The notes under the pieces: generated by a model
Databases searched by the model: none
What the model saw: the letters and a program-made list of their open reading frames with translations, nothing else
What the model was told of the DNA's origin: nothing
In this document: piece after piece, positions 7,979 through 62,968 of the stretch
Layout of the letters: the number at the start of each line of letters is the position of its first letter
Position numbering within the stretch: the first letter of the stretch is position 1
Position numbers and translations under genes: made by a program
Assembly (NCBI RefSeq): GCF_000266945.1
Contig: NC_018025.1
Coordinates: 4,592,001 to 4,656,000 of the forward strand
DNA length: 64,000 nt
Source of the DNA: Desulfomonile tiedjei DSM 6799
Lineage (GTDB): Bacteria > Desulfobacterota > Desulfomonilia > Desulfomonilales > Desulfomonilaceae
Direction: 5' to 3'

Positions 7979-8003
7979 TTGGTTATTTGCAGATTCGTCT
8001 AAT

Positions 8004-8300
8004 TATAGTAAGCGCCAAAACTAATGTCTGATTCAGAAAAAAGAGTGTTGGTAGGTGCCGTGCCTCCGTGCCGGCACGTGTTCAATATGATCAATGATAT
8101 CGATAAAATGGATCGGTAAGGAGAGATTGTCTCAAGATTCTCCAATGCATAACAATCGTGCCACGATTCTCCTTCTTTGGTAGGGGCAGACCTATGCGTC
8201 TGCCCTTATTTGGGCGGACACGCAGGTCCGCCCCTACAATACGGCCGAGAATATAATGAGAACTTCGTGCCACGATCCGGGGACAAATTTCGACTCTTGG
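8004..8300 (-). repeat. Variant 187-bp-family element interrupted by a second palindrome
   Basis: From TATAG at 8004 the sequence follows the inverse of the elements at 62782 and 52873, with the GTGCC...GGCAC hairpin at 8055-8077 and the TATGATCAATGATATCGAT centre. After about 8110 it continues as the long variant with ATCGTGCCACGATT. A separate imperfect palindrome, TAGGGGCAGAC...GTCCGCCCCTA (about 8181-8237), interrupts it. It fills the gap between mnmE and the carboxylase operon. No gene or clear terminator is seen. Confidence 0.65.
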
Positions 8301-16549: not shown

Positions 16550-17007
16550 GACTGATTGCCAAAAATTCTGACGGTTATATCTCACGGTCCAATTCAAGAT
16601 GTCAGTGAGGACCGGCGTCCCGAAGCTATCTCAAGACTCATGAATGACAAAACATCGTGCCACTATTTGGAATGAACGACTTTTATAGCGGTTATCGAAA
16701 GTCTTGACGGAATCCAATGCCTGCAATTGGAAGAATCAGTAGCGCCGGCGTCTCTGCCGGCGATAACTGTAGGATTTATTTGGTGAATTGGTCACCGGCA
16801 CGGAGGCCGGCGCTACCAATTGCTGGGAGCTGTTCTTCACAATCCGTGATTACTTTCGAGAATCGGTATAAGACAGTCTCTCCCTGCCAATCCATCGTAT
16901 TGATATTATTTATTATATTGAGAATGTGCGGCTCGGAAGCCGGCACCCACCAGTACTCTTATCCTCAATCGGACATTATTTCAGCAATTGCTGTATCTAT
17001 TGCGATT
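16550..17007. repeat. Long dispersed element split by a nested 187-bp copy
   Basis: The left part (about 16555-16683: TTGCCAAAAATTCTGACGG, then GACCGGCGTCCC and ATCGTGCCAC) and the right part (16871-17007: AGACAGTCTCTCCCTGCC, then GTGC...GCCGGCACC, TCAATCGGACATTA) together correspond to the long element at 54770-55143. They are separated by the complete 187-bp element at 16684-16870. Nothing coding is supported between the SdpI-like gene and the XRE-cupin gene. Confidence 0.7.
16684..16870 (+). mobile_element. Complete 187-bp MITE-like palindromic element (copy 1)
   Basis: The element runs from TATAGCGGTTATCGAAAGT to ACTTTCGAGAATCGGTATA, inverted ends matching at about 16 of 19 positions. 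Inside are two hairpins, GCCGGCGTCTCTGCCGGC and CCGGCACGGAGGCCGG. The copy at 48795-48981 has exactly the same length and about 93% identity by my count (13 mismatches, half of them clustered in the centre). It carries no open frame for a transposase, so it would be non-autonomous. Confidence 0.75.
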
Positions 17008-48702: not shown

Positions 48703-48794
48703 GCACCCCTGCGTCTGGGATCAATGACGATTTTGGGTGCCACGGACCTGCCCTGTAGGTGCGTGTTACTGCCTCAATAAAGAAACATAAGATT

Positions 48795-48981
48795 TATAGC
48801 TGTTATCGAAAGTCTTGACGGAATCCAATGCCTGCAATGGGAAGAATCAGTAGCGCCGGCGTCCCTGCCGGCGATAACTTATTGCTTTGTTTGGTGAATT
48901 GTTCGCCGGCACGGAGGCCGGCGCTACCAATTGCTGGGAACTGCTCTTCACAATCCGTGATTACTTTCGAGAATCGGTATA
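48795..48981 (+). mobile_element. Complete 187-bp MITE-like palindromic element (copy 2)
   Basis: From TATAGCTGTTATCGAAAGT to ACTTTCGAGAATCGGTATA it has the same length, ends and two inner hairpins as copy 1 at 16684. It overlaps the last 21 bp of the PyrE-like gene, which reads leftward into it and ends at the TAA-type stop it provides. TA-flanked ends suggest, but do not prove, mobilisation by a Tc1/IS630-type transposase. Confidence 0.75.
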
Positions 48982-49722
48982 GCATGAAAATGCGGCGATT
49001 CGCTTCTGCTCGGCTTCTGTCTGGAATGGACTGGAATCCTCCAAATAGCGATTTATCACATCCCATTCCGTGGGATGCATTACGCCTTTGAGCAAGGGCA
49101 ATCCGACTGTTTTGAATGGTACGATGCTGAGGAGCCTGATTCCTTCCTTTTCTGCAGCTTCCTTGCCGCCCTGTTCCCGATCGAGCACTACCAGAACGGT
49201 GTTTGACACTACATCTGAAAGTCCCTTTTTTCGGACCTCATATTTTACCTGTTCCATAGCCACGAGTTTGCTGTCGAATCGGGTTACGAGATCGTCCACA
49301 AGGGCAACTTTATCATTCGACGTGAGTTCGCCTTCCAGAAGAGCGTGCTCGCCGTATGTGGTTATTGCTTTCTTGAATGCTTCTAAAGACTTTACCCCCT
49401 CCATTTTTCGAGTGAATCCCGCAGGAATACCCAGGAGTGACATACCTGCCGCAAGGGGAACACCGGCCATAGCGATACCGATCACTTTGGTGATTTCCGG
49501 AGCCTCCTCCTGCACCATGCGAACCATTCCCTTGCATACGGTTTCGAACACGCGCGGATATGAAATCAAGGGACGGAACTGGATGTACAAGGGGCTGTAA
49601 AGTCCTGAAATCAGCTTCCACCCTTCTGGTTTATCCCTGTAGAACGTTCGGATCATACGGTGTTCGTACAGGAGCGACAGGATTTCTCTTGCAAAGCTTT
49701 CTTTTTCTTGTGCCCAGGACAT
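48961..49722 (-). CDS. Orotate phosphoribosyltransferase-like protein
   Basis: The 253-residue protein has the phosphoribosyltransferase fold with GWKLISGLYSPLYIQFRP (OPRT N-terminal pattern), IGIAMAGVPLAAGMSL and the PRPP loop VALVDDLVTRFDSK, in which the usual TG-GT is changed. It would convert orotate with PRPP to OMP, or act on a related base. ATG 49722 follows AAAGGA; a frame to 49824 is unlikely. The final seven residues and stop are encoded by the repeat element 48795-48981, so the original C-terminus may have been replaced. Confidence 0.8.
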   Translation of the reverse strand: MSWAQEKESFAREILSLLYEHRMIRTFYRDKPEGWKLISGLYSPLYIQFRPLISYPRVFETVCKGMVRMVQEEAPEITKVIGIAMAGVPLAAGMSLLGIPAGFTRKMEGVKSLEAFKKAITTYGEHALLEGELTSNDKVALVDDLVTRFDSKLVAMEQVKYEVRKKGLSDVVSNTVLVVLDREQGGKEAAEKEGIRLLSIVPFKTVGLPLLKGVMHPTEWDVINRYLEDSSPFQTEAEQKRIAAFSCYTDSRK

Positions 49723-49924
49723 CTGAATCCTTTCTCGGGTGTCTTCATCTACAGGAAAACATGAGTATCTTTCTATCTGGATTGCGGTGTATTTCGATAT
49801 TCGGAGAAACGTACAGTAACTCACTCATTGCCATATTTCAAACGAAAGCCGCAGTTGACTATGTCCCGCAGGTACTATAATCTTATTTTTTCGACTCAAT
49901 CAATGAAACCGGGAAATTACATTC

Positions 49925-51508
49925 ATGCTGAAAGGTAGGAATATCCTCCTTATAGGAGCGAGAGCAGGAGGCTACGGAGAAGGGATCGCCCGCGCAGCGG
50001 TAGCAGCCGGAGCGAACGTATACGGAACCACGCTTACACCCTCGGATCCGCAGGAACAGAATTTTTTCGAGTCCCTGCCGGCGGAGCTTATTGACATTCC
50101 CTTGCGATTCGATTCCGAAAACAGGGCTGGTGTTCTTGACACCTTCAAAAGGATTCAAGAATACCTGAGAGACAAAGGGGTTCAGAAGCTTGATGCTGTT
50201 ATTCATACAGTAGCAGGCGGGTTTCCCAGACAACCTTCTGTCATGAAAGCAGTGGCAGACATTCTGCGCGGGAAATCCACTTTTTCGGATATGGCAACCT
50301 GCGTCAAACGAAATGTCTTCTATGTCAACGCTGGTTCATTCGAGGATACGATTACAGGGTTATCCGGGATTTCCGACACCAACACTCAATACGTGGCACT
50401 CACGTATCGTGGAGAACTCCCTTACTTCATCTCCCAGACAAAACACTATCTCGAGAGACTCGCAGTCCGGCAGGCCGGAAAGGGAATTCGCACACTGATT
50501 GCAGCTCTTCCGGAAGCATGGACCCAGTCTTCCCAATTCTTTGCGGGAATTGAAATCGCTGTCATCCACAATTACCTCTCGCATTTGCAGGGACGCGATC
50601 CAGGCCAGGAATTCTCTGAACCTTTTCAGAAGATGGAGAAATCTCTTGCGGCTCTGGCGGGATTCCCGGAATTGCTCTCGGAATTGCAGGAGTTTATACG
50701 CGATCGCTGGGGAGATATAAATGCAGCATCGAATCCCGCTATTGTTTCGGAAAGGGTCGAACGTCTCTTCACGGAACTGCGACACAAAGGGAACTTTTCT
50801 GTTCTTCGCCAGTCGGTCGAAATCATATCGGATTTCGTAAGATCCGCATCCGGCATGATCGTGGTAAGGGATTTCCTGGAACAGAAGGCCTATGAACCTG
50901 GGGACGTAAGGCAGGTATATTATCGCGATTTGTTAGGCTCTACTTCGGTTGAAAAAGCGAAACCTCGCGTCGTCCCGGTGAGAAGAGTAGTGGTCAATCG
51001 CAAGTGGCAGGAATTCGATAAAGAGGACGTGCGCTCCACCCTCAGCATGTACGGGGAGAAATTTCTCTTTCTCGATTCCGTCATCATGGAAGTGGGAGAA
51101 GTGTACACCGGATTTTTGGGGTTCGCGAAATTTAGAGTGCCAACCCCCGACGAAAATCCTATCCTCAAGGATCACTTCATAGGAATGCCGTTGTTTGGGG
51201 GGCATCTCCAGATGGAGGCCGTGGCTCAGTTCGGCACTTTTATGATTCTGAAAGTGCTCAAGGACAAAAGACTGGTACCTATACTGACGGGAACCGAATT
51301 CCCCGATCTGAATACTATGGCGCCGCCGGGCGAGGTGCTCAAGATGATGGGCACCATTCACCTTGCGGAAAAAAGAAATCTCGTACTTGAGGCCACCATA
51401 GAGAACCGCTTTGCTCGCTCGAAGGGGATAATCAGAGGAATGGTTGTCAACCAGCGGGTGATCCGGAAGATGATGTCAGCGTTCGACTCTGTGGAGGGCG
51501 ACGATTGA
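49925..51508 (+). CDS. Enoyl-ACP-reductase-like SDR fused to FabZ-like hotdog domain
   Basis: The 527-residue protein has two parts. The first (about 1-245) is a short-chain dehydrogenase of the FabI/FabV-like type: ILLIGARAGGYGEGIARA, VIHTVAGGFPRQ, VALTYRGELPYF. The last (about 375-520) is a hotdog fold with the FabZ/FabA active-site pattern DHFIGMPLFGGHLQMEAVAQFG, His417 and Glu431. Between them is a helical linker. This could combine dehydration and reduction in fatty acyl synthesis. The SDR lacks a plain GxxxGxG and the Tyr-Lys pair is displaced, so activity is uncertain. No acyl carrier protein gene is nearby. Confidence 0.8.
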   Translation: MLKGRNILLIGARAGGYGEGIARAAVAAGANVYGTTLTPSDPQEQNFFESLPAELIDIPLRFDSENRAGVLDTFKRIQEYLRDKGVQKLDAVIHTVAGGFPRQPSVMKAVADILRGKSTFSDMATCVKRNVFYVNAGSFEDTITGLSGISDTNTQYVALTYRGELPYFISQTKHYLERLAVRQAGKGIRTLIAALPEAWTQSSQFFAGIEIAVIHNYLSHLQGRDPGQEFSEPFQKMEKSLAALAGFPELLSELQEFIRDRWGDINAASNPAIVSERVERLFTELRHKGNFSVLRQSVEIISDFVRSASGMIVVRDFLEQKAYEPGDVRQVYYRDLLGSTSVEKAKPRVVPVRRVVVNRKWQEFDKEDVRSTLSMYGEKFLFLDSVIMEVGEVYTGFLGFAKFRVPTPDENPILKDHFIGMPLFGGHLQMEAVAQFGTFMILKVLKDKRLVPILTGTEFPDLNTMAPPGEVLKMMGTIHLAEKRNLVLEATIENRFARSKGIIRGMVVNQRVIRKMMSAFDSVEGDD

Positions 51509-51522
51509 CGGAGTAATCAAAC

Positions 51523-52707
51523 TTGACCTCTCCTGATTGCTTTGTTACAAGACCGAATAGCAAGCGTCCCCAATTCTGTCCCCCGGAAACGAGCTTGACG
51601 CCAACTCAAACACGGGCTAGCGGAATTGCCAATTCTCTCAAATGGGATTTGGCGAAATCCGTTGCCAAGCTCAATCAACTGTCCGAAGTGCTTGCCCCTG
51701 TCAAAGGGCGGCGTATGCTTGTTCTTTGCCATAACAACCCTGATCCTGATTCCATCGGGGGTGCTTATGCTTTCAGTTTTCTCCTGGCAAAGAAATTTGG
51801 AATTCGCTCGGTTCTGGGTTACGGTGGAGTAGTCACGCGGGCTGAAAACAAGGCCATGATCCATCGTCTGCGCATCAAAATGATGCAGTTGACCAAGGTC
51901 GACCCGTCTAAATATGGCGGAATAGCACTTATTGACGCTCAACCCGGTACCGGGAACAATTTAATGGATGCTCGGAAACCTTCTCCGCTCATCGTGGTCG
52001 ATCACCATCCATTACGGCAGACAACACTGAAAGCGCCGTTTCATGATATTCGCACGCGGTACGGAGCCACATCCACCATCATTACCGAGTATCTTGTTGC
52101 CGCGGGATTAATCCCGTTGCGTTCCGTCGCGAATGCTCTTCTGTACGGCATAAAGGCCGATACGAATTCTCTCACCAGAGCAGCCGCCAAAGTCGACTTC
52201 ACCGCGTTCAACTATCTATCGCCACTTACAAATCATCGCATCATAGGTCTGATCGAGAGGCCCGCGTTATCATCGGAATATTTTGAGGATCTGTACAATG
52301 GTATATCCAAAACAATTATATATCGTGACGTGGCCATATCCGATTTAGGGGAGATTCATTCCGAAGCCATTGTGCCGGAATTGGCCGATCTGCTCCTGCG
52401 GACGGAAGGCGTGAGTTGGTCGTTCTGCATAGGAAAAATGGATAAGCTCCTCATTCTTTCCATGCGATCCACTACTCGGACTCATAAAGCCGGATACGTG
52501 CTAAGACGACTTGTTGCCGGCCAGGGATCGGCAGGTGGGCACAGAGAAATGGCAGGCGGCCAGGTCCCTCTCACAGGGAAATCCCCGCAGGAAAAGAAGG
52601 AGCTTCCCTCGAAGCTCATCGCGAGTTTCTTGAAACTCATCAAGAGGGAGCGCTGTCAGCCCAAGCCTTTCGTTCACACGGATGCCAAATGCAAAGCGGC
52701 AGAATAG
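51523..52707 (+). CDS. DHH-family phosphoesterase (NrnA/RecJ-like)
   Basis: The 394-residue protein has the DHH domain (about 60-225) with VLCHNNPDPDSIGGAYA and IVVDHHPL (DHH motif), and a C-terminal DHHA1 domain with GSAGGHREMAGGQV. Such enzymes degrade short oligonucleotides or 3'-5'-phosphoadenosine phosphate (nano-RNase type) with Mn2+. TTG 51523 has GGAG 9 nt upstream. The first 35 residues are a Pro/Thr-rich extension. It lies 14 bp after the fusion gene, suggesting a shared transcript. Confidence 0.87.
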   Translation: MTSPDCFVTRPNSKRPQFCPPETSLTPTQTRASGIANSLKWDLAKSVAKLNQLSEVLAPVKGRRMLVLCHNNPDPDSIGGAYAFSFLLAKKFGIRSVLGYGGVVTRAENKAMIHRLRIKMMQLTKVDPSKYGGIALIDAQPGTGNNLMDARKPSPLIVVDHHPLRQTTLKAPFHDIRTRYGATSTIITEYLVAAGLIPLRSVANALLYGIKADTNSLTRAAAKVDFTAFNYLSPLTNHRIIGLIERPALSSEYFEDLYNGISKTIIYRDVAISDLGEIHSEAIVPELADLLLRTEGVSWSFCIGKMDKLLILSMRSTTRTHKAGYVLRRLVAGQGSAGGHREMAGGQVPLTGKSPQEKKELPSKLIASFLKLIKRERCQPKPFVHTDAKCKAAE

Positions 52708-52872: not shown

Positions 52873-53059
52873 TATCACAATTGCCAAAATTAGTGTCCGA
52901 TTGAAGATTAGGAATATTGGTGGGTGCCGTGCCTCCGTGCCGGCACATCTTCAATATGATCAATGATATCGATAGAATGGACCGGCAGGGACGCCGGTCC
53001 CCACTAGTATCTTGTATTGGAGCATGGGATAAACGTCAGGATTTTTCGCAATCGCTATA
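52873..53059 (-). mobile_element. Complete 187-bp MITE-like palindromic element (copy 3)
   Basis: Inverse orientation. The ends read TATCACAATTGCCAAAA and, from the other side, TATAGCGATTGCGAAAA. Inner hairpins are GTGCC...GGCAC with CTCCGTGCC and CCGGCAGGGACGCCGG. Aligned to copy 4 at 62782 it has the same length and closely related sequence, including TCAATATGATCAATGATATCGAT. The rest of 52708-53114 holds no gene. Confidence 0.75.
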
Positions 53060-54769: not shown

Positions 54770-55143
54770 TAGGGGGGATCGGCGTCCCGAAAGTGTCTCA
54801 AAATTCTCGAATACACAACAAATCGTGCCACGATTATCCATCTCTATAAGCTGACAGCGTGGCCAATGTAGGATGCGATGACCAACGGGAATCGCATCAG
54901 TCGAGGTCTTTCGCGACCGATGCGATTCGCTTCGCTCATCACATCCTACGTGAGCTACAATCAGTCTGGGAAGACTATGAGAAATTCGTGCCACCATCTG
55001 GGACAAATTTCGACTTTTGAGACAGTCTCTCCCTTCCGGTCCATTCTATGGATATCATTGATCATATGAAAAATGTGCCGGCACGGAGGCCGGCACCCAC
55101 CAATATTCTTATTTTCGATCAGACATTGATTTTTGACAATTTT
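54770..55143. repeat. Long dispersed palindromic element with internal GCGATTCGCTTCGCTCA repeat
   Basis: It begins with GGATCGGCGTCCCG and ATCGTGCCACGATT and ends with GTGCCGGCACGGAGGCCGGCAC and TTTTGACAATTTTA, the long variant also seen split at 16550-17007. Its middle contains a palindrome, GTAGGATGCGATGA...TCATCACATCCTAC (54868-54949), of the type common in many bacteria. No gene is supported between 54650 and 55168. Confidence 0.7.
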
Positions 55144-62781: not shown

Positions 62782-62968
62782 TATAGTCACTGCCAAAAAT
62801 TCTGTCGTTTATCCCGCGTGTGAATTACAGGATATTGGTAGTGACCGGCGTCCCTGCCGGTCCATTTTATCGATATCATTGATCATATTGAAGATGTGCC
62901 GGCAAGGAGGCACGGCACCTACCAGTACCCTTGTCCTCAATCGGACATTAGTTTTGACAATTCCTATA
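62782..62968 (+). mobile_element. Complete 187-bp MITE-like palindromic element (copy 4)
   Basis: From TATAGTCACTGCCAAAAAT to TTTTGACAATTCCTATA. It has the same length as copies 1-3. Inner hairpins are GACCGGCGTCCCTGCCGGTC and GTGCCGGC...GCACGGCAC. Its nearest relative is copy 3. It lies between convergent genes in a 270-bp gap with nothing else recognisable. Confidence 0.75.

Follow-up and report, generated by a model that had tools for sequence, protein, structure and literature searches.

The locus considered here raises the question whether enoyl-ACP reductase and FabZ, which are regarded as separate proteins of type II fatty acid synthesis, can occur as one chain, and what such a chain would do. 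The window, i.e. the whole stretch of 64,000 nucleotides from Desulfomonile tiedjei DSM 6799 that was analysed, holds a gene that a preliminary description had read as a single SDR-hotdog protein (Table 1). The frame is indeed uninterrupted and has copies throughout the family to which the window's genome belongs. Since homologues occur in 18/18 family genomes, and the window copy is 55-69% identical to the 15 other long copies in the family alignment, the joint is not an artefact of frameshift or assembly. The reductase and dehydratase domains are genuinely joined in one protein.

Table 1. Features of the fusion gene and its neighbours in the window (positions count from the first nucleotide of the window).
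Feature	Position	Strand	Remarks
Fused FabMG-type reductase / FabZ-like hotdog	49925..51508	+	527 aa, ATG start, no internal stop
N-terminal FabMG-type SDR domain	49925..50944	+	about residues 1-340, boundary approximate; PF22046, 6kia, hhalign
Y-x5-K motif, codons Y167 to K173	50423..50443	+	invariant in 16/16 rows; aligned with Y266/K272 of canonical FabMG
C-terminal FabZ-like hotdog	51005..51487	+	about residues 361-521, boundary approximate; predicted model vs FabZ structures
His417, predicted dehydratase catalytic histidine	51173..51175	+	invariant; aligned with hf motif, P. falciparum FabZ
Glu431, predicted dehydratase catalytic glutamate	51215..51217	+	invariant where reached; aligned with FabZ EA-AQ helix glutamate
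DHH-family phosphoesterase gene	51523..52707	+	PF01368 and PF02272 over cut-off; TTG 51523 is the first possible start
Orotate-phosphoribosyltransferase-like gene	48961..49824	-	product below all NCBIfam cut-offs; no Pfam match at E <= 1e-4

Within the family, 15 genomes hold the fusion whole; two copies are cut by contig ends (G001 and G017) and one is split over two contig ends (G010). The fusion was absent from the other 42 genomes searched, 24 of the sister family f2 and 18 from elsewhere in the phylum, and the best match in f2 (E 0.04) was not a convincing relative. A scan of named genomes with two patterns of the reductase half, which leaves an un-fused hotdog outside its reach, gave 15 loci. 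Nine carry the label Desulfomonile or Desulfomonilaceae; the fusion is whole or nearly so at 13 loci and runs off the contig at the other two. These loci are not independent evidence, because they come largely from the same genomes as the family search. No un-fused precursor was present among the 15 loci, and a plasmid search for the fusion gave no match.

The preliminary description had called the N-terminal half an enoyl-reductase-like SDR, and as a reductase it stands; the type is that of FabMG (Y-x5-K) instead of FabI (Y-x6-K). PF22046 (FabMG) is the best Pfam match of the window protein (35.1 bits, cut-off 27) and is matched by 16/16 aligned fusion members at E <= 0.01, and none of the NCBIfam FabI models matched the window protein. 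When the PDB was searched with the single sequence, FabMG was the sole match, at a non-significant E of 0.14, and with the family profile it ranked first (E 2.2e-5). Comparison by hhalign of the fusion reductase profile with eight canonical FabMG proteins of the phylum gave a probability of 97.7 (E 2.2e-12), and it is in this profile comparison that the invariant tyrosine and lysine of the two groups coincide. FabMG is described as carrying a Yx5K motif and complementing E. coli fabI(Ts), and the changes Y260F and K266A are described as abolishing this complementation (PMC9260719). The predicted structure of the whole protein has a mean pLDDT of 79.5, with values below 50 for residues 98-131 of the reductase part. 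Foldseek with this structure gave FabMG as the best match (E 2.5e-11), and in the fold comparison residues 1-338 of the model matched 6kia (FabMG) with a Z of 26.0 at 3.2 A over 321 residues, whereas FabI-type entries reached at most 22.2. The motif spacing and the better match to FabMG rule out a FabI-type identity. Canonical FabMG is a stand-alone protein of about 440 residues, and because the present reductase is fused and has only about 340, we class it as a FabMG-type domain and not as FabMG itself. The reductase half thus groups with FabMG, a rare type of enoyl-ACP reductase, its activity being predicted from sequence and model.

In the C-terminal half, the preliminary description had placed a FabZ-type pair at His417 and Glu431. 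The placement is correct, and both residues are invariant wherever copies reach the two positions (16/16 and 15/15 rows, respectively, in the family alignment A1, and 17/17 rows for both in the hotdog alignment A2). FabA is described as having Asp where FabZ has Glu (PMC516016), so the His/Glu pair is of the FabZ kind. The hotdog folded alone (17 alignment rows) gave a model with pLDDT 84.2, for which the 27 best rows of the fold comparison were all FabZ-type dehydratases with Z from 17.8 to 16.5 (best match 2.6 A over 141 residues), against 14.5 for the best FabA. The MaoC domain PF01575 gave no match on the window protein in Pfam at E <= 10. Measured against curated FabZ models, the window copy lies below the cut-offs (PF07977, 17.7 vs 23; NF000582, 23.5 vs 113; TIGR01750, 21.1 vs 155.15), and GG replaces PG in the motif relative to FabZ; the PF07977 cut-off is passed by the fusion in 11 of the 18 family genomes. 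The hotdog is FabZ-like and divergent by score, and we predict dehydratase activity from its residues and modelled fold and do not class it as FabZ proper.

From the architecture, the conserved residues, the predicted folds, the distribution of the fusion and the absences reported below, we infer that the protein is probably a bifunctional enzyme which dehydrates 3-hydroxyacyl-ACP and reduces enoyl-ACP, and which replaces FabZ and, in many members, the stand-alone enoyl-ACP reductase. Conversion of 3-hydroxyacyl-ACP to saturated acyl-ACP had been suggested earlier and is plausible, as both sets of active-site residues are present. The hotdog, presumably dimeric as in FabZ, would use His417 and Glu431 to turn (3R)-3-hydroxyacyl-ACP into trans-2-enoyl-ACP, and the FabMG-type SDR would then reduce the enoyl-ACP to acyl-ACP with Tyr167, Lys173 and NADH or NADPH. 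With both sites on one chain, reduction would pull the reversible dehydration forward, and a single protein would carry out both closing steps of every elongation cycle, presumably as a housekeeping function. Channelling between the two sites and a role in a special lipid, both suggested in the preliminary description, are hypothetical.

The alternative that survives best, although we regard it as unlikely, is that the fusion has both activities and serves a side pathway, e.g. for special outer-membrane or branched acyl chains, with bulk fatty acids being made by other enzymes, such as dehydratases of the MaoC type together with FabI or reductases resembling FabK/NMO. The two readings are best weighed against the other dehydratases and reductases of the family. 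PF07977 gave exactly one match in 17 of the 18 family genomes, and this was always the fusion; the copy in G001 is cut by a contig end. The combination that had been named as fatal to the preliminary description, separate full fab genes beside a fusion lacking both active sites, was not found: the residues are kept, and the fusion is the only PF07977 protein in the 18 genomes. MaoC proteins, which count in favour of a side pathway, occur in 17/18 family genomes. Weak NF000582 matches recur in the family in frames of about 160-230 aa. As candidates for a second FabZ, the five of these frames that were inspected (G000, G004, G005, G007 and G015) were rejected and read as thioesterase-type hotdogs, those of G000 and G005 matching 4HBT over the Pfam cut-off; of the other weak rows, some lie at MaoC positions and some inside megasynthase frames.

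In a sample of the phylum, PF07977 was matched in 137/148 genomes at E <= 0.001. The 11 genomes without a match are the window's own, whose fusion scores just outside this limit, four of f2 and six more. The sister family lends the side pathway some support, as it is without the fusion (24 genomes, G018-G041) and, in a sample of four genomes, gave no match to PF07977. A short FabZ-like match in one f2 genome (G028, E 2.5e-6) lies beside a carrier-protein-like frame, and an f2 match in G026 was rejected as FabZ, the protein being MaoC. Lineages close to the window's family thus seem to get by with no recognisable FabZ, so that another dehydratase, perhaps of the MaoC type, may work in the class.

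Among stand-alone enoyl reductases, FabV and FabK over its cut-off (453 bits) were each found in 0/18 family genomes. Relatives of FabK below the cut-off, which are in favour of a side pathway, are present in nine of the 18 (G001, G002, G004, G006, G007, G008, G009, G015 and G016) as stand-alone NMO/FabK-like frames of about 310-392 aa with 120-264 bits. The three FabK-model matches of the window's own genome sit in giant frames of 2648 and 3533 aa; as a FabK candidate the former was rejected, its product being an NMO-KS-AT-ACP-KR-dehydratase protein of 2641 aa. This megasynthase (L046 6674-14599, C1 at about 3.877-3.885 Mb) has NMO, ketosynthase, acyltransferase, carrier, ketoreductase and PKS-dehydratase domains, and similar giant frames with FabK-model matches are seen in most family genomes. 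With E. coli FabI as query, the window's own genome alone gave a clear FabI (42% identity, E 2.5e-61), which passes an NCBIfam FabI cut-off (450.8 vs 337); the remaining 53 of the 54 rows had 22-34% identity. At the 23 of 54 places inspected (all in G000, G005, G006, G007, G009 and G012, 4/5 in G008, 1/2 in G002 and 1/4 in G001), the own FabI has Y-x6-K, and Y-x3-K, as in classical SDRs, is present at the 22 others. The FabI locus (L048 3878-6979, C1 at about 6.01 Mb) is intact and adjoins a DUF3141 gene, on the far side of which lies a frame containing MaoC. The FabI counts in favour of a side pathway and complicates the simple reductase-dehydratase picture of the preliminary description, of which the two residue sets hold good; we read the locus as accessory. 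The cleanest case for the fusion without stand-alone counterparts is G012 (97% complete), in which no stand-alone FabI, FabK, FabV or FabZ was found and MaoC gave four matches. This genome, and the occurrence of the fusion in every member of the family, argue against a side pathway.

Other type II genes were found as well. FabF was over cut-off in 16/18 family genomes, and the order fabD-fabG-acpP-fabF was found in 4/4 clusters fetched (G000, G005, G006 and G012). The fabD of three fetched clusters matches an acyl transferase domain, and fabG and acpP of the window's own genome have family matches; the other gene names in the clusters were read from translations. FabF and this cluster indicate that a type II pathway is present, of which the usual dehydratase, and FabI outside the window's own genome, were not found. 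The fusion gene lies outside the fab cluster, as might be expected of a side pathway; against that reading, no lipid-pathway neighbours were recognised around it. Downstream on the same strand, the DHH gene is present in 13 of the 15 named loci, the other two ending inside the fusion. It had been reported to follow at 14 bp; the gene is real, and this distance holds for its first possible start, which is perhaps not the true one. The DHH gene is a conserved neighbour, and nothing links it to the proposed reaction. The orotate-phosphoribosyltransferase-like gene lies divergently upstream of the fusion, also in 13/15 named loci (absent in L021 and L034). The gene order around the fusion is conserved and suggests no lipid pathway. 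A pair of 190-bp intergenic repeats (16682-16870 and 48793-48981) with 94% identity was also noted in the window, together with diverged intergenic repeats at 52879-53059, 55030-55141, 62782-62962 and 8002-8135 (about 80-87% identity).

The bifunctional enzyme in a housekeeping role is the reading we prefer. The role itself falls short of proof because f2 seems to lack FabZ, MaoC occurs in 17/18 family genomes and the window's own genome has the type I megasynthase with NMO and dehydratase-like domains. MaoC proteins and the megasynthase could supply the same steps, so that the fusion is perhaps dispensable.

A second alternative is that one half is catalytically dead and kept for binding or assembly, leaving a protein with just one of the two activities. 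The low scores of the hotdog against FabZ models and the poorly predicted stretch of the reductase model would fit this; Y167, K173, H417 and E431 are, however, invariant wherever rows reach them, which makes a dead half improbable. An MFE-2-like enzyme of CoA metabolism, in beta-oxidation a hydroxyacyl-CoA dehydrogenase and a hotdog hydratase on one chain, would have the same SDR-hotdog order, but it can hardly be reconciled with a FabMG-type SDR that has Y-x5-K in place of the classical Y-x3-K and with a hotdog that matches FabZ and not, in Pfam, MaoC.

FabMG, FabZ and hotdog fusions are all known already, and what is apparently new is that, in type II synthesis, a FabZ-like dehydratase shares its chain with an enoyl-ACP reductase; no such fusion was found in a literature search that had most subscription papers outside its range. 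The accessible literature describes FabMG from a single metagenomic protein, and the fusion would widen its known range. Annotators would also gain a name for proteins with poor scores against FabZ models. The fusion occurs naturally in all family genomes searched, where it is apparently the sole FabZ relative, and would offer a compact system in which the coupling of dehydration and reduction could be studied. Canonical un-fused FabMG was seen in 8/395 phylum genomes (L071-L078), of which the four in the 148-genome sample also have FabA/FabZ-family matches; no hotdog was recognised by eye within about 1.5 kb on each side of the eight genes.

With FabMG (PF22046; PDB 6ki9/6kia) the fusion shares the fold, the Y-x5-K pair, the glycine-rich start and the PE-x3-T/Q-SS region. 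Canonical FabMG is un-fused with about 440 aa, whereas the fusion reductase has about 340 aa, is 28% identical over the 253 columns of the profile alignment and carries a hotdog. The hotdog fold and the His/Glu pair are common to the fusion and FabZ, while the fusion's hotdog is divergent and joined to a reductase. The LpxC-FabZ fusion of Chlorobium is described as likewise combining a FabZ-like domain with a second enzyme (PMC516016). There the partner is a lipid A deacetylase, and here it is of the enoyl reductase type. It is possible, although we put this forward only tentatively, that the whole bacterial family has merged the last two type II elongation steps into one FabMG-FabZ enzyme in place of both stand-alone enzymes. 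In fungal type I FAS, reductase and hotdog dehydratase are also on one chain, the reductase being a flavin enzyme inside a megasynthase. If our suggestion is true, the family-wide FabMG-FabZ enzyme would stand halfway between type II synthesis, with its dissociated enzymes, and type I synthesis by a megasynthase.
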